In this document: positions 4,100 through 54,997 of the stretch, piece by piece
Layout of the letters: every line of letters begins with the position of its first letter
Numbering within the stretch: position 1 is the first letter of the stretch
Assembly: GCA_021325215.1 (NCBI GenBank)
Contig: JAJPHO010000097.1
Span: 1-64,000 of the forward strand
DNA from: Alphaproteobacteria bacterium
GTDB taxonomy: Bacteria; Pseudomonadota; Alphaproteobacteria; Rhodospirillales; Magnetospirillaceae
Length of the DNA stretch: 64,000 bases
Direction: 5' to 3'
Notes under the pieces: generated by a model
Told to the model about the DNA's origin: nothing
Database searches by the model: none
The model's input: the letters and a program-made list of their open reading frames with translations, nothing else
Program-made: the position numbers and the translations under genes

Positions 4100-4599
4100 G
4101 AAGGGTTCCGGAGCGCCTCTTTCTTATGTGCTTTCGCGATTTCCTGGCGAATTTCTTCGACCGCGCGAACCATATGTTTTTTTACCGCTGCGTTGCTCAA
4201 TCCCACGGCTTGGCAGATTTCGCCGAGGCTCTGCCCATGCAGCCGCCGGCGGAGAAAAACCTCGCGCCGCAAACGCGGCATGCCGGCAATAATACGCTGC
4301 AGCTGTTCCACCCGCTGCCGATGCATGACGATGTCATCCGCCGCCGGCGCGTCGACAGCGATCTCGTCATCCAGCGCTTCCGTAGACGCGTCTCGCCTGT
4401 TGCGGAAATGATCCGACAGCAAATTGGCGGCGATGCGCAGGCAGAAGGCCGTGCTGTCGGCCACAGGGCGATCCTGGCCGTAATGGAGGAAGCGATAAAA
4501 GGTCTCTTGCACGAGATCTTCGCTGATCCAGTGATCGCCCACCCGTCGATTGATGAAACGGTACAGATTGTTTCGTAGCGCCATCAGATCGCTGGTCAT
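4096..4599 (-). CDS. FecI-type ECF RNA polymerase sigma factor
   Basis: 167 aa with region 2 at ~8-70 (LVQETFYRF, then FCLRIAANLLSDHFR) and region 4 at ~105-160 (PRLRREVFLRRRLHGQSLGEICQAVGLS, a helix-turn-helix). It is expected to direct transcription of the adjacent TonB receptor in response to FecR. The ATG at 4599 has no good ribosome-binding site. Instead it shares ATGA with the stop of a 19-codon upstream ORF that has a strong Shine-Dalgarno sequence, which suggests translational coupling. The stop overlaps fecR. It lies 75 bases downstream of the receptor gene. Confidence 0.92.
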   Translation of the reverse strand: MTSDLMALRNNLYRFINRRVGDHWISEDLVQETFYRFLHYGQDRPVADSTAFCLRIAANLLSDHFRNRRDASTEALDDEIAVDAPAADDIVMHRQRVEQLQRIIAGMPRLRREVFLRRRLHGQSLGEICQAVGLSNAAVKKHMVRAVEEIRQEIAKAHKKEALRNPS

Positions 4600-36015: not shown

Positions 36016-36097
36016 AATAAGAGAAATAAAGTTCTAGAATATGTCGCCGGAGAGCAAGGTTGGCCCATCGAAACCAACCAAGCCAATGGAGGCTGGA

Positions 36098-36895
36098 ATG
36101 AGCAAAGGTAAGGTTCTTGTGATCGGGTCCAATGCTACCCGGATCGAAATTCAGGGCGGTGGCTGGGCTGCTACCGGTCAATATCTCAACGAAACCGTCG
36201 AACCCGCCATGGCGGTGGCCGACGCGGGCTACGAGATCGTGCTGGCGACCCCCGACGGCACCAAGCCGCATATCGACCCGGTGTCGGATTCGGCCAAATA
36301 TTTCGGCAATGACGAGGCCGAGTATCAGCGCGGCAAGGCGTTCTTCGCCACTTATCCCGCGATGAACCAGGTCCGCACGCTGGCTTCGGTGATCGAGGAG
36401 GGGCTGGATAATTATGTGGGCGTGTTCGTTCCCGGCGGTCAGGCCCCGGGTGTCGATCTGATGCAGGATGCCGAACTGGGCATCATCCTGCGCCACTTCC
36501 ACCAGCGGGCCAAGCCGACGGCGCTGCTGTGCCATGGCCCGATCGCGGTTGCCGCGGCGCTGCCGCATGCCCGCGAATTCCGCGCCGCGCTGATCGCCGG
36601 CGATGCCGCCAAGGCGGCCGAATGGGCCAAGGGCTGGCAATATACCGGCTACAGGATGACGGTCTTCTCCAACAGCGAGGAAAAAATCGTCGAGGAGCAT
36701 GTCCTGAATGCCAAGCTCCACTTCAATGTGGCCGACGCCCTGGAAATCGCCGGAGGCGAGGTGATCACCGGCACGGTCGATTTCGCGCCGAACGTGATCG
36801 AGGACCGCGAACTGATTACCGGCCAGAATCCGAGCTCGGACCGTCCGCTGGCCGCGAAGTTCGTCGCCGCGCTGGACCGCTCCGTGGCGGCTTGA
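36098..36895 (+). CDS. DJ-1/PfpI-family protein (Hsp31-like)
   Basis: 265 aa from ATG 36098 (GGAGG, spacing 5; an upstream ATG at 36041 is weaker). Type 1 glutamine-amidotransferase-like fold with the nucleophile elbow ALLCHGP (C145) and an acidic partner in the N-terminal half (PGGQAPGVD). Related Hsp31-like proteins act as glyoxalases, deglycases or chaperones; the role here is inferred as electrophile or stress protection. The divergent LysR gene and palindrome suggest induction. Confidence 0.83.
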   Translation: MSKGKVLVIGSNATRIEIQGGGWAATGQYLNETVEPAMAVADAGYEIVLATPDGTKPHIDPVSDSAKYFGNDEAEYQRGKAFFATYPAMNQVRTLASVIEEGLDNYVGVFVPGGQAPGVDLMQDAELGIILRHFHQRAKPTALLCHGPIAVAAALPHAREFRAALIAGDAAKAAEWAKGWQYTGYRMTVFSNSEEKIVEEHVLNAKLHFNVADALEIAGGEVITGTVDFAPNVIEDRELITGQNPSSDRPLAAKFVAALDRSVAA

Positions 36896-36959: not shown

Positions 36960-38255
36960 TCAGCGCAGCGGCTTGAACGCCGCCCGCAGATCCTCGACCA
37001 GGGTGTCGGGCTGTTCCCAGGCGGCGAAATGACCGCCCTTGGCCTGCTTCTTGTAATAGATCAGGTTGGGGAAAGCGGCCTGCACCCAGCTCTTCGGCGC
37101 CTGGTACAGTTCGTCCGGGAAGGCGCTGACGGCAACCGGGATGGTGATCCCCTTCGGCGCGAAGAAGGCCAGCTTGTTCTCCCAATAGAGCCGCGCCGAC
37201 GATATGCCGGTACCGGTCAGCCAATAGAGCGTGATGTTGTCCAGCACGTCGTCGCGGGTCAGGCCCTCGCTCTTTCCGTCGAACACCCGGGCGATCAGCT
37301 CGTAGCTGCGCGCGTCGTGATCGATCATCCACGAGGCCAGGCCGACCGGCGAATCCTCGATGCCGTACAAGGTCTGCGGACGGGCCGACATCTCCAGGGC
37401 ATAGGACAGGCCGTGCTTGTAGAAGAAGTCGAGCTGCTCATAGGCATGCCGCTCGTCCGCCGGCAATCCGGCCGGCGCCGGTCCGCCCGCCTGCAGCGCC
37501 CTGCCGATCCCGGCGGGAACCGTGGCCGGCATGTTGGTGTGGATGCCCTTCAGTTCCGGCGGAGCCTGCACGGCCATCTGCTCGGTGACCGCATCGCCCC
37601 AATCGCCGCCCTGGGCGACGAAGCTGGTATAGCCGAGGCGGCGCATCAGCTCGGTCCAGGCGCGGGCGATGTGCTGCGGGTCCCAGCCGGTCTCGCCGGG
37701 CTTGCCCGAGAAGCCATAGCCGGGCAGCGACGGAATGATCACATCGAAGGAGTCCGCGGCGCTGCCGCCATGGGCGGTCGGGTTGGTCAGCGGATCGATG
37801 ATCTTCAGCTGCTCGATGACCGAGCCGGGCCAGCCATGGGTGATGATGACCGGCATGGCGTGCGGGTTCTTCGAGCGGACATGGATGAAATGGATGTCGA
37901 CGCCGTCGATATTGGTCACGAATTGCGGCAGGGCGTTCAGCTTGGCCTCGGTTTTGCGCCAGTCATAGCCGTTCGCCCAATAGTCGGCGAGCTTGCGCAT
38001 GGTCTCCAGCTGCACGCCCTGGCTGGCGTCGTTCACCAGCTCGCGGTCGGGCCAGCGCGTCGCCAGGATGCGGTTGCGCAGATCGGCCAGGGCCTCGTCC
38101 GAGGCATGGAACTCGAACGGGCGGATCAAGGTGTCGCGGACGACATGCTCTTGCGCGGGAGCCCTCTCTGCGGCCTGCACGGTAACGGGCTGAGAGAACA
38201 TCAGGCCGCTGGCCAGGGCGGAGGCGGCGAACAGCAGCTTTGTACGGTTGGTCAT
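36960..38255 (-). CDS. exported epoxide hydrolase (EHN-type)
   Basis: 431 aa from ATG 38255 (GAGG upstream). Signal peptide ~1-29 ending QAA-ER. An N-terminal EHN domain (RPFEFHASDEALADLRNRI, ~40-140) is followed by an alpha/beta hydrolase core: ITHGWPGS (oxyanion loop), AQGGDWGD with the nucleophile Asp, and a late GGHFAAWEQP with the catalytic His. It opens epoxides to diols by the alkyl-enzyme route. Export to the periplasm is unusual for this family. It is divergent from an OhrR-type regulator with shared operator repeats. Confidence 0.9.
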   Translation of the reverse strand: MTNRTKLLFAASALASGLMFSQPVTVQAAERAPAQEHVVRDTLIRPFEFHASDEALADLRNRILATRWPDRELVNDASQGVQLETMRKLADYWANGYDWRKTEAKLNALPQFVTNIDGVDIHFIHVRSKNPHAMPVIITHGWPGSVIEQLKIIDPLTNPTAHGGSAADSFDVIIPSLPGYGFSGKPGETGWDPQHIARAWTELMRRLGYTSFVAQGGDWGDAVTEQMAVQAPPELKGIHTNMPATVPAGIGRALQAGGPAPAGLPADERHAYEQLDFFYKHGLSYALEMSARPQTLYGIEDSPVGLASWMIDHDARSYELIARVFDGKSEGLTRDDVLDNITLYWLTGTGISSARLYWENKLAFFAPKGITIPVAVSAFPDELYQAPKSWVQAAFPNLIYYKKQAKGGHFAAWEQPDTLVEDLRAAFKPLR

Positions 38256-38284
38256 GACTGAAAACCTCATGGGCTGGTTAAAAA

Positions 38285-38310
38285 CGCATACGATTAGATC
38301 GTGTGCGATT
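38285..38310. promoter_or_regulatory. operator repeat 1 between epoxide hydrolase and OhrR-type gene
   Basis: CGCATACGA (38285-38293) and TCGTGTGCG (38299-38307) pair with one mismatch. The right half extends as ATCGTGTGCGATT, which matches site 2 (ATCGTATACGATT) at 11 of 13 positions. It lies 30 bases upstream of the epoxide hydrolase start and probably binds the same regulator. Confidence 0.6.
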
Positions 38311-38352
38311 GAAATATGCCTTCAAAAAGATCGAGTCAAGGTCTTCCGATTT

Positions 38353-38366
38353 AATCGTATACGATT
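38353..38366. promoter_or_regulatory. operator repeat 2, perfect palindrome
   Basis: AATCGTATACGATT is a perfect 14-base palindrome 37 bases before the regulator start, followed by TTATATAGGAGG, which contains a likely -10 and a Shine-Dalgarno-like sequence. Its position suggests autorepression by the OhrR-type protein. Confidence 0.65.
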
Positions 38367-38403
38367 TATATAGGAGGGGCGATGTCAACGCCCGGAGGTT
38401 CCC

Positions 38404-38844
38404 ATGCCCCCCAAACTGTCCAATTTTCTGTGTTTCGCGGTCTATTCGGCCAATCTGGCCTTCGGCCGCGCCTATAAGCCGCTGCTCGACGCGGTTGGCC
38501 TGACCTATACCCAGTACATCACTCTGGTGGCCCTTAATGAGGATGACGACCAGACCGTGAAAGCGCTGGGCGAGAAGCTGTTCCTGGAATCCAACACTTT
38601 GACGCCGATCCTCAAGAAGCTGGAATCGATGGGCTATATCCGCCGCCAGCGCGATGCCGAGGATGAGCGCCAGGTGCGGATCAGCCTGACCCCTGTCGGG
38701 CGCAAGCTGGTGGAAAACGATCTCGGCGCGCCGCTGACCGAAGCCATCGGCCTGGGCGACGACTTCCCGGCCGTGCAGCAGACCGTGGCCAAGGTGCGCG
38801 ACAATCTGCTGGCGCATATACCGGCACCGAACAAGGCGGACTGA
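38404..38844 (+). CDS. OhrR-type MarR regulator (one-cysteine peroxide sensor)
   Basis: 146 aa MarR protein. The N-terminus FLCFAVYSANLAFGRAYKPLL places C10, Y14 and Y24 with the same spacing as the sensing Cys and its two tyrosine partners in Bacillus OhrR (C15, Y19, Y29). C10 is the only cysteine, so it is the one-Cys type, which is inactivated by organic hydroperoxides. The winged helix LGEKLFLESNTLTPILKKLESMGYIRRQRDAEDERQV is complete. There is no ohr gene nearby; the divergent gene is an exported epoxide hydrolase. Confidence 0.9.
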   Translation: MPPKLSNFLCFAVYSANLAFGRAYKPLLDAVGLTYTQYITLVALNEDDDQTVKALGEKLFLESNTLTPILKKLESMGYIRRQRDAEDERQVRISLTPVGRKLVENDLGAPLTEAIGLGDDFPAVQQTVAKVRDNLLAHIPAPNKAD

Positions 38845-52080: not shown

Positions 52081-53826
52081 ATGCGCAGACGGGATCTTTT
52101 CAAAGCGGTGGCGGGACTGGCGATGATTCCGGTGATGGGGGTGCGGGCCCTGGCCGCTCCGTTCCGCCGGGTGCGCCCGGGCGACGCCGCCTGGCCGAAA
52201 GCGTCCGACTGGGAAGCCTTGCGCAAACAGGTCGGCGAAGCGCTGATCCGCCCCGAACCGCTGCACGGACCCTATGACAATCCCTTCAATATCGGCGACC
52301 AGGCTGCCGGCACCCAGGTGTCGGGCTGGCTGAACGCCTGGAAGCCCGGCATCAGCGCCTATGCGGTGAAGGCGCGCGGCGGCGAGGATGTCGCGGCGGC
52401 GGTGGATTTCGCCCGCCGTCATAAGTTGCGCCTGGTGGTGAAGGGCGGAGCGCACAGCTATCAGGGCACCTCGAACGCGCCGGACTCGCTGCTGGTGTGG
52501 ACCCGCGCGATGAACCGGGTCCAACTGATCGACGGCTTCACGCCGGAAGGCTGCAGCGATGCGCCGGTGCCGGCGGTGTCGGTCGAAGCGGGCGCGATGT
52601 GGATCGACGTCTATGACGCGGTGACCACCAAGGGCGGGCGCTACGCCCAGGGCGGCGGCTGCACCACGGTGGGCGTCGCCGGCCATGTGCAGAGCGGCGG
52701 CTTCGGCTCTTTCTCGAAGCGTTGGGGCACCGCCGCCGGCAGCGTGCTGGAAGCCGAGATCGTTACCGCCGACGGCACGCTGCGCCGCGTCAATAAATGC
52801 CGCGACCCCGAGCTGTTCTGGGGCATCAAGGGCGGTGGCGGCGGCAGTCTCGGCGTGGTGACCAGGCTGATCCTGCGCACCCACGACCTGCCCGAGTTCT
52901 TCGGCGGCGCCTTCGCCACCATCCGCGCCAATTCCGACGAAGCCTATCGCCGGCTGATCACGCGCTTCTTCGATTTCTATGCCGAAGCTTTATACAACCC
53001 GCATTGGGGCGAGCAGGCCAGGCTGCGCGGCGACAACCGCCTGGAAATCAGCATGGTCTGCCAGGGATTGACGGCCGAGGAAGCCAAGGCGGTATGGAAG
53101 CCGTTTCTCGACTGGCTGGCCGCTTCGCCGGGCGATTACGGCTTCGACGAGGATTTCTGGGCCGGCGCTTCGGTCGCGCGCGCCTGGTGGGATGCCGAGG
53201 CCCGCCGCAAGCGCGGTTCGACGGCGATGGTCTCCGACGACCGCCCCGGCGCTTCGGCGGCCCATGTCTGGTGGCGCGGCGATCAGGAGCAGTGCAGCGT
53301 GTTCCTCTATGGCTATGAATCGCTGTGGCTGCCGGGTTCGCTGCTGGACTCCGCGCGCCGCCCAGCCCTGGTCGAGGCGCTGATGGCCGCCAGCCGGCAC
53401 AAGAAGGTCGAGTTGCATTTCAACAAGGGCCTGGGCGGCGGCGATGTCGAAATGGCGGCGCTGGCCCGCGACACCGCGACCAATCCGGAAGCGGCGGACG
53501 CCTTCGCTTTGGCGATCATTGCCGATGGCGGCCCGTCGCGTTTTCCCGGCATGCCCGACGCCAGGGACGAGGAAAAGGCGCGCCAAGCCGCCGCGGCGGT
53601 CGATGCGGCGACGGCGATCCTGGCGCCGCTTGCCCCGGCCGGCGGCTCCTATGTCTCGGAGAGCAACTTCTTCAACAAGAGCTGGGCCAGATCGTTCTGG
53701 GGCAGCAATTATCCCCGGCTGCTGGCGGCCAAGCGCCGCTACGACCCCGACGGCCTATTCTTCGTCCATCACGGGGTCGGGTCCGAGGATTGGAGCGCGG
53801 ACGGCTTTACGCGAGACGCGACTTGA
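52081..53826 (+). CDS. Tat-exported bicovalent FAD oxidoreductase (BBE-like)
   Basis: 581 aa. N-terminal RRRDLF Tat motif. PCMH-type FAD domain (~90-270) with KGGAHSYQGTS (H125) and GGGCTTVGVAGH (C194), the residues that attach FAD to both His and Cys in berberine-bridge-type oxidases. The C-terminus has the BBE domain (NFFNKSWARSFWGSNYP...YDPDGLFFVHHG). Oxidises an unknown (poly)hydroxyl substrate, presumably in the periplasm. Divergent from LytTR. Confidence 0.9.
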   Translation: MRRRDLFKAVAGLAMIPVMGVRALAAPFRRVRPGDAAWPKASDWEALRKQVGEALIRPEPLHGPYDNPFNIGDQAAGTQVSGWLNAWKPGISAYAVKARGGEDVAAAVDFARRHKLRLVVKGGAHSYQGTSNAPDSLLVWTRAMNRVQLIDGFTPEGCSDAPVPAVSVEAGAMWIDVYDAVTTKGGRYAQGGGCTTVGVAGHVQSGGFGSFSKRWGTAAGSVLEAEIVTADGTLRRVNKCRDPELFWGIKGGGGGSLGVVTRLILRTHDLPEFFGGAFATIRANSDEAYRRLITRFFDFYAEALYNPHWGEQARLRGDNRLEISMVCQGLTAEEAKAVWKPFLDWLAASPGDYGFDEDFWAGASVARAWWDAEARRKRGSTAMVSDDRPGASAAHVWWRGDQEQCSVFLYGYESLWLPGSLLDSARRPALVEALMAASRHKKVELHFNKGLGGGDVEMAALARDTATNPEAADAFALAIIADGGPSRFPGMPDARDEEKARQAAAAVDAATAILAPLAPAGGSYVSESNFFNKSWARSFWGSNYPRLLAAKRRYDPDGLFFVHHGVGSEDWSADGFTRDAT

Positions 53827-54997
53827 TCCGGATCTCTCCTTCAAGGGTGCGATGGACCGGGCAGCGGCCGGCGATGGCCAGCAGCTTGTCCCGGTCCTCC
53901 TGCGACAGGTCGCCTTCCAGTGTGATCTCGCGCGTCATCTCGGTGAATTCACCGCCTTCGCCCTGAATCTTGGCCATCCGTAGCGCGACGCCGATCCGCT
54001 CGACCGGGATTTCCTTGCGCTCGGCATACATGCGCAGCGTGATCGAGGTGCAGGCGCCCAAGGCACCCAGCAGATAATCGAACGGGCCCGGTCCGGAATC
54101 GTCGCCGCCGATGTCGGCCGGCTCGCTGGCCTTCAGATGATGGCGTCCGGCGCGCACTGCGTTGGCATAGCGGCCGGTGCGGGTCTCTGTCACCGTCACC
54201 AGGCCGGGTTCGAGCGGAGCCTCCTGCGCCGTTTCCGCCTCCGGCAGGAAGCGCGAGGCCCAGGCGGCGATGATGTCGGCGGCATAGACCGCGTCGGCGC
54301 GCTTGCGCAGCAGATGGTCGGCGGTGTCCAGCGAGACGAAGCTCTTGGGATGGCGGGCGGCGGCGAAGATGGCGTTGGCGTTCTCGATCCCGACCGTGTC
54401 GTCGAGCGGGGCGTGGCAGACCAGCAGCGCCTTGTTCATGCCGGCCAGTGCGCCCAGGAAGTCCTGGCTGATGACATCGTCGAGGAACTGCTTTTTGATG
54501 GTGAAGGGACGTCCCGCCAGCATGACCTGGGCGATGCCGTTCTTCTCGATTTCGTCGATGCTGCCGGTGAACAGATGGGTGATGTGGCCGGCCGAGGAGG
54601 GCGCGGCCATGGTGGCGATGCCGACCGCTTCCGGCACCTTCGGTCCGGCCGCCAGCACGGCGGCGCCGCCCAGGCTGTGGCCGATCAGCAGCGACGGCGC
54701 GCGGTGGTTCTTGCGCAGATAATCGACGGCGGCCAGCAGGTCTTCGACGTTGGATGAGAAATTGGTGTTGGCGAATTCGCCTTCGCTGCTGCCGATGCCG
54801 GTGAAGTCGAAGCGCAGCACGGCGATGCCCTGCGATGTCAGCCGTTCGGCGACGCGCTGCGCGGCGAAGATGTCCTTGCCGCAAGTGAAGCAATGGGCGA
54901 ACAGCGCGAAAGCGCGCGGACGCTCGGGCAGGTCCAGGCGTGCGGCGAGCATCTGCCCCGAATGGCCTGGAAACTCGATCTTCCTGCTGTCGCTCAT
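53807..54997 (-). CDS. alpha/beta-hydrolase-OsmC fusion protein
   Basis: 396 aa. N-terminal alpha/beta hydrolase (~1-250): FAHCFTCGKD, RFDFTGIGSSEG, nucleophile elbow LIGHSLGGAA. C-terminal OsmC-like domain (~265-396): GPGPFDYLLGALGACTSITLRMYAERK and the second cysteine region AGRCPVHRTL. OsmC proteins reduce organic peroxides using the two cysteines. The fusion is known in proteobacteria. Convergent with the flavoprotein, overlapping by 20 bases. Confidence 0.93.
   Translation of the reverse strand: MSDSRKIEFPGHSGQMLAARLDLPERPRAFALFAHCFTCGKDIFAAQRVAERLTSQGIAVLRFDFTGIGSSEGEFANTNFSSNVEDLLAAVDYLRKNHRAPSLLIGHSLGGAAVLAAGPKVPEAVGIATMAAPSSAGHITHLFTGSIDEIEKNGIAQVMLAGRPFTIKKQFLDDVISQDFLGALAGMNKALLVCHAPLDDTVGIENANAIFAAARHPKSFVSLDTADHLLRKRADAVYAADIIAAWASRFLPEAETAQEAPLEPGLVTVTETRTGRYANAVRAGRHHLKASEPADIGGDDSGPGPFDYLLGALGACTSITLRMYAERKEIPVERIGVALRMAKIQGEGGEFTEMTREITLEGDLSQEDRDKLLAIAGRCPVHRTLEGEIRIKSRLA

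Follow-up and report, generated by a model that had tools for sequence, protein, structure and literature searches.

A one-cysteine OhrR-type regulator probably controls an exported-type EHN epoxide hydrolase through a three-site operator array

The OhrR response has so far been described mainly through Ohr. Here we analyse a 64-kb stretch of DNA from an alphaproteobacterium (contig JAJPHO010000097.1, positions 1 to 64,000; called the window below), in which a gene for an OhrR-type regulator of the MarR family is divergent from a gene for an EHN-family epoxide hydrolase. Statements on published systems refer to those parts of the cited texts that were available. By our comparison, the nearest precedent is EstR-EstC of Agrobacterium tumefaciens, in which cumene hydroperoxide induces through Cys16 (PMC5201249). 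As in the window, an OhrR paralogue with an N-terminal sensing Cys and two Tyr is divergent from an alpha/beta hydrolase gene, and more than one operator lies over both promoters. EstR differs in its second cysteine (Cys114) and its two operators, GTTATCGCGATAAC and a homologue, which are unlike the window sites; EstC is a shown esterase, and no ohr-type cassette is described for the pair in that source (PMC5201249). In Sinorhizobium meliloti, the OhrR-like repressor SMc01945 likewise stands beside the secreted-enzyme gene cpo (SMc01944), not ohr; cpo is described as a secreted peroxidase and is likened to EHN by description only (PMC3107159). SydR of the same species is likewise an OhrR-like redox repressor with a sensing Cys and more than one operator (two sites), and it controls the adjacent SMa2023; it differs from the window regulator in the sequence of its sites, TATCGCGATA, its two cysteines and NaOCl as best inducer (PMC11633110). 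OhrR-type control of a hydrolase is thus not new, since EstR-EstC and the cpo-adjacent repressor precede it. Cif is described in the available text as an exported epoxide hydrolase with a repressor of its own, CifR, which resembles what is predicted for the window enzyme. Unlike the window OhrR, CifR is a TetR-type, epoxide-responsive regulator.

The classical OhrR-ohr systems (one-Cys B. subtilis and two-Cys X. campestris types) share the protein family, the sensing Cys and the Tyr set with the window regulator, and their divergent ohrR-ohr arrangement is seen in most array-bearing relatives examined. The window departs from them in its three-site array of the AATCGnATnCGATT type, which differs from the classical TACAATT-AATTGTA operator, and in EHN as the first gene. 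Microsomal-type EHN epoxide hydrolases (5f4z, 4i19, 1qo7) share the domain and the aligned active-site residues with the window enzyme, which differs in its signal-like N-terminal segment and its place behind an OhrR-type array. In the literature searched, as far as its text was available, we found no EHN target of an OhrR, no three-site cassette and no exchanged targets. Papers matched by the operator strings were unrelated by title, and in two of the four papers with both OhrR and 'epoxide hydrolase' the latter was FosB or stood within a reference title. The available parts of PMC7141136, PMC8226930, PMC10458429, PMC11975290, PMC4360819 and PMC5372718 held nothing on an EHN enzyme under OhrR.

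The gap between ohrR and EHN was found to hold three operators (Table 1), where the sequence-only reading, made from the letters alone, had counted two. Their spacing is A-56-B-15-C, compared with 57 and 15 in the nine relatives found first, and the array between ohrR and EHN is the only one in the whole window. Under a strict rule (each site with at most 2 mismatches to ATCGnATnCGAT, A-B 53-57, B-C 15), the array was present at 28 of 47 OhrR-like loci, a share that is not a population figure because the loci were selected by similarity to the window protein; L142 and L153 had no full array under this rule and were counted as negative. The strict array was absent from the 75 control loci, which cover 0.67 Mb and include 71 EHN loci lacking this OhrR, as well as from 235 mononucleotide shuffles and 235 first-order Markov sequences. 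The spaced three-site array is not due to chance, and like the protein families and the positions of the sites, its conservation is read directly from the DNA. The first gene behind site C, read off the rows of the 28 array loci, was ohr in 21, an alpha/beta hydrolase in three, DipZ or a thioredoxin-like relative of it in three, and EHN in one, the window. The EHN start lies 28 bp from site C; for the 21 ohr genes driven by the array the corresponding distance is 25-52 bp (starts extrapolated from protein matches). Judged by these distances, EHN occupies the position that ohr holds in relatives, and because an array that mostly precedes ohr precedes EHN at a similar distance, the OhrR-type sensor probably controls the exported-type EHN hydrolase.

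Table 1 Features of the ohrR-EHN locus, in positions of the window
Feature	Position	Strand	Remarks
EHN-family epoxide hydrolase	36960..38255 (ORF open to 38270)	-	431 aa from likely start; divergent from ohrR
Operator C	38282..38295		28 bp ahead of EHN start codon
Operator B	38297..38310		Directly downstream of proposed EHN -10; 15 bp from C, 56 bp from A
Proposed EHN -10, TATTTC	38311..38316	-	By eye; 17 bp from -35; hexamer and spacing same in L067
Proposed EHN -35, TTGACT	38334..38339	-	By eye
Weak -35-like TTCCGA of ohrR	38344..38349	+	By eye; 17-bp spacer to -10 contains site A
Operator A	38353..38366		Perfect palindrome AATCGTATACGATT; inside proposed ohrR promoter spacer
Proposed ohrR -10, TATATA	38367..38372	+	By eye
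ohrR-type MarR-family gene	38404..38844	+	146 aa, one-Cys OhrR

The same array recurs elsewhere in the genome. No Ohr gene was found within the window, in agreement with the earlier claim that none lies nearby, but an ohr gene elsewhere in the genome, on contig C37, carries a full three-site array (54 and 15) with no ohrR beside it and is in this sense an orphan. Of what the sequence-only reading held would count against it, one half is therefore seen here: an ohr elsewhere has the same sites. The C37 protein passes the TIGR03561 cut-off (113.7 versus 88.85 bits), and all three ohr proteins tested against NCBIfam, two of them array-driven, were above the Ohr cut-off. The genome has four OsmC-domain genes; the only OsmC match in the window (53807-54997) was rejected as a local ohr, being an alpha/beta hydrolase-OsmC fusion and not Ohr by NCBIfam. 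The two best B-C pair matches in the 4.88 Mb genome were C37 (0 mismatches) and the window (1). Since the orphan ohr has the full array and these two places are the best B-C matches, the OhrR regulon is probably split, with the C37 ohr controlled in trans. In three genomes of one genus (G353, G577, G653), an ohr that carries an array lies apart from an ohrR that is accompanied by a DipZ-type gene or hydrolase and likewise by an array; to judge from their gene order, these genomes are an independent case of such a split. Taken as a whole, we consider it likely that the window is one half of a split OhrR regulon that would co-control EHN and the C37 ohr.

The regulator itself fits this assignment. 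Its best PDB matches were X. campestris OhrR 2pfb (1.7e-28, residues 4-109) and B. subtilis OhrR 1z91 (1.1e-25, residues 4-117). The NCBIfam OhrR model was its top match, yet under the cut-off (115 versus 200 bits), which the genome's own ohr-linked OhrR also missed (172.9 bits). As had been read from the letters, C10 is the only cysteine and is accompanied by Y14 and Y24. In the 2pfb alignment C10, Y14, Y24 and Y35 all meet Cys or Tyr, the crystallised chains 1z91 and 2pex have Ser at the Cys position, and the C/Y/Y/Y set was found in 47 of 47 aligned OhrR-like rows. Because C10 is the only Cys and there is no C-terminal resolving Cys, the protein is by its residues of the one-Cys class, not the two-Cys class. 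In X. campestris OhrR, Cys22 is the sensing residue and Tyr36/Tyr47 the important Tyr pair (PMC5201249). C10 precedes Y24 by 14 residues and Y35 by 25, just as Cys22 precedes Tyr36 and Tyr47, so the documented pair corresponds to Y24 and Y35; the redox centre proposed earlier (C10, Y14, Y24) holds in that all three residues align, but it had overlooked Y35.

The window shares the recognition-helix stretch LFLESNTLTPILKK with 19 of the other 27 array loci, so that 20 of the 28 have it. The genome has three clearly OhrR-type proteins, those of the window, C33 and C141, and the next MarR match reached only 1.5e-8. The same stretch reads LQLDSGTLTPLLKR in the C33 paralogue and LFLEPSTMTPMLKR in the C141 paralogue, and neither locus has the three-site array. 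The C33 ohrR adjoins ohr and has a classical-looking TACAATT-like site (L021, by eye). The C141 locus (L022 6457-8663) is a non-ohr one, in which the OhrR paralogue (58 percent) has as divergent neighbours a GST and an alpha/beta hydrolase whose N-terminus is Tat-like; it carries a TTATCATGATAA element recalling the EstR operator (by eye). That each of the three paralogues has its own helix stretch and its own kind of site would fit insulated regulons.

From these features we infer binding, induction, export, substrate and trans control as follows. Reduced OhrR would bind the three spaced palindromes of the ohrR-EHN gap, site A in the ohrR promoter giving autorepression and sites B and C, located across the EHN promoter's start region, repressing the hydrolase. 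An organic hydroperoxide would oxidise C10 and release OhrR from the DNA; since there is no resolving cysteine, this would probably run via overoxidation or via a mixed disulfide between C10 and a small thiol. Release would derepress ohrR together with the EHN gene, whose product is predicted to be exported, and with the C37 ohr in trans. Lipid peroxidation gives epoxides as well as hydroperoxides; Ohr would then reduce hydroperoxides in the cytoplasm, and EHN would open the epoxides arising with them outside the inner membrane. The signal could also be a different one: the regulator may be redox-sensing with hypochlorite or a reactive electrophile as its main signal, the EHN enzyme handling products of that stress. 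This rival is serious, as the SydR target responds far more to hypochlorite than to hydroperoxides (PMC11633110), yet we consider it unlikely, given that the cassette drives ohr at three quarters of the array loci (21/28) and that the array-driven ohr proteins tested are Ohr by the NCBIfam cut-off.

The divergent gene had been read as an EHN epoxide hydrolase, and this was borne out: on its ORF, Pfam gave EHN at 134 bits (2.9e-39) and Abhydrolase_1 at 45 bits, and PDB epoxide hydrolases were matched (5f4z 4.3e-89, 1qo7 1.1e-50, also 4i19). The likely start is the second ATG, with the ribosome site judged by eye. D218, Y285, Y357, E382 and H409 aligned with positions of solved epoxide hydrolases, and we take them to be the catalytic residues; the window enzyme thus combines an EHN domain with an alpha/beta hydrolase fold that carries the Asp-His-acid set and the two Tyr. 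Its first 28 residues are signal-peptide-like (13-mer hydropathy 1.93, VQA-A end, by eye), and the N-termini of OhrR-linked EHN relatives are Sec- or Tat-like (by eye) except in L064, where the printed ORF start is too far upstream. On the strength of this segment the hydrolase is probably exported. Even under OhrR control the enzyme might in vivo be no epoxide hydrolase but an esterase like EstC, or turn over some other substrate: EstC, the target of an Agrobacterium OhrR paralogue, has esterase activity (PMC5201249), and members of other alpha/beta hydrolase families likewise occur behind the array. The EHN domain together with the aligned Asp, two Tyr, Glu and His of solved epoxide hydrolases makes such a role rather unlikely. 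An Asp nucleophile is moreover unusual in esterases, which counts against it as well.

The pairing of EHN with OhrR was examined in other genomes. The best 80 of 174 relatives in an EHN scan were taken as the 80 EHN loci (L033-L112), and a close OhrR was found at nine of them, three in Rhizobium and six in Pandoraea. The pairing that the sequence-only reading had proposed to look for thus exists, but ohr intervenes in every case: the gene order was ohrR, ohr, EHN at 9 of 9 loci, with msrB next after EHN at the three Rhizobium loci. An Ohr-like gene was present at 16 of the 80 loci within the DNA examined. Ten plasmid records were common to the best 40 EHN and the best 40 OhrR matches, and in none of the ten did the best EHN lie within 90 kb of the best OhrR. 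One of the ten, L133, whose OhrR is of the Microvirga kin, does carry a weaker EHN (57 percent) beside ohrR, on its other side. Among 55 genomes from the family, 7 had OhrR relatives at E 1e-20; among 317 from the order, 3 had them at E 1e-40.

Because ohr precedes EHN at all nine OhrR-linked loci and the C37 ohr is under the same array, EHN looks like an addition to the hydroperoxide response and not a replacement of ohr. The earlier phrase, EHN 'instead of ohr', is true of the window locally, but not of these nine loci or of a genome that has kept the C37 ohr. A sensor that lost its link to ohr and serves epoxide opening only, as the sequence-only reading had it, is distinctly improbable: the window does show EHN alone divergent from ohrR and no Ohr gene, and L143, L163, L139 and L144 have a hydrolase or DipZ-type gene behind the array without an ohr match in the DNA examined, but against this stand the full array on an Ohr gene of the same genome and the place of EHN after ohr at the linked loci. 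The earlier observation is confirmed with three corrections (the operators, the hydrolase start, the ohr elsewhere), and its interpretation is partly supported.

The EHN label on the OhrR tree needs three changes, and the starred branches force three, with gains and losses not distinguished. Closest to the window on that tree are two OhrR proteins from Microvirga (96/84); in both, ohr is the gene that the array drives. The EHN tree, built from 57 of the 80 loci with the window, L133 and L137, is unlike the OhrR tree, and the distribution of EHN is sporadic. Both facts would suit a chance neighbourhood, in which a mobile EHN gene landed by ohrR and is unregulated by it, but this is very improbable with the EHN start 28 bp behind site C, at the place of ohr in relatives and with the array intact, and with three changes (gains or losses) required on the OhrR tree.

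Several observations weigh against the split regulon that we prefer. Single-site matches in the window are weak evidence (3 seen, 0.79 expected; at least 3 in 3 of 100 shuffles), and for this reason the array was tested with control loci, shuffles and Markov sequences. A strict consensus scan for sigma-70 promoters found none, the proposed promoters being placed by eye. The strict array was absent from 19 of the 47 OhrR-like loci; five of these, L135, L155, L156, L157 and L160, share the LFLESNTLTPILKK stretch all the same, and have the motif as a single site or as one or two pairs. The OhrR-EHN pair is rare: 71 of the 80 EHN loci had no OhrR-like match within the DNA examined, and at E 1e-40 EHN was confined, among 55 genomes of the family, to the one that holds the window. 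Loose B-C matches are common in the genome (269 per strand at up to 3 mismatches; control 3), and therefore weight is given only to places with 0-1 mismatch and to the full spacing. The ohr tree places the C37 ohr among other ohr genes of the array type and not with those of Microvirga, the nearest kin of the window OhrR (quick tree, long branch). That the C37 ohr is a displaced neighbour of the window ohrR is not supported by this tree.

Genes other than ohr behind the array bear on how far the arrangement can be generalised. The alpha/beta hydrolases directly behind it at L143, L163 and L203 have Tat-like N-termini. DipZ comes first at L139, and the first gene at L144 and L159, at the usual place of ohr, is thioredoxin-like, related to the C-terminal part of DipZ only and with a signal-like N-terminus. 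In Azospirillum brasilense (L136, L164; about 4280-4360) a second three-site array lies directly before an alpha/beta hydrolase gene that comes after ohr. On a broader reading, over which we are evenly divided, the array would be an exchangeable 'peroxide promoter': a distinct recognition helix would mark a subfamily of one-Cys OhrR proteins that works with a fixed cassette of three operators, and the target of the cassette would have been repeatedly swapped (ohr, EHN, other export-type alpha/beta hydrolases, DipZ-type thioredoxins), with several trans copies per genome possible. Epoxide hydrolysis outside the inner membrane would then be, in the window, a direct branch of the organic-hydroperoxide response.

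If the split regulon holds, an OhrR cassette co-controlling Ohr and an epoxide hydrolase would be a second arm of the response, suggesting that one response may handle both epoxides and peroxides, and the EHN proteins found in soil and root bacteria would gain a likely signal and class of substrates. With the conserved array, candidate members of the regulon can moreover be recognised from DNA alone, without a neighbouring regulator, the orphan ohr genes being an example. When genomes of the whole class were searched for just the B-C pair, 26 of 385 were matched, with 2 in the reversed control run alongside. Of 17 places inspected, seven adjoin Ohr, OhrR or an array-type hydrolase (L201 and L208 among these have no strict array); the other ten have none of the three and look like chance.

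Some further arrangements were seen. In three genomes of one genus (L204, L206, L207) an orphan ohr has the full array and no ohrR beside it within 6 kb, and a 567- or 568-aa gene comes after it. At L203 (2987-3069) two interleaved arrays, one per direction, lie between the OhrR-like gene and the alpha/beta hydrolase. Two Ohr genes (L134 4384-4776 and 7585-7977) are near one OhrR on plasmid pNGR234b of Sinorhizobium fredii NGR234.

The surroundings of EHN also showed recurring genes. In the window, a DJ-1/PfpI (HchA-like) gene at 36041-36895 is convergent with EHN, and a similar gene was found at 6 of the 80 EHN loci within the DNA examined. An alpha/beta hydrolase like that of C141 was near EHN at 19 of the 80, and a relative of a gene taken for glyoxalase-like at 18. 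These neighbours hint at a wider detoxification cluster. Close EHN kin were found in records named Bacteroidetes.

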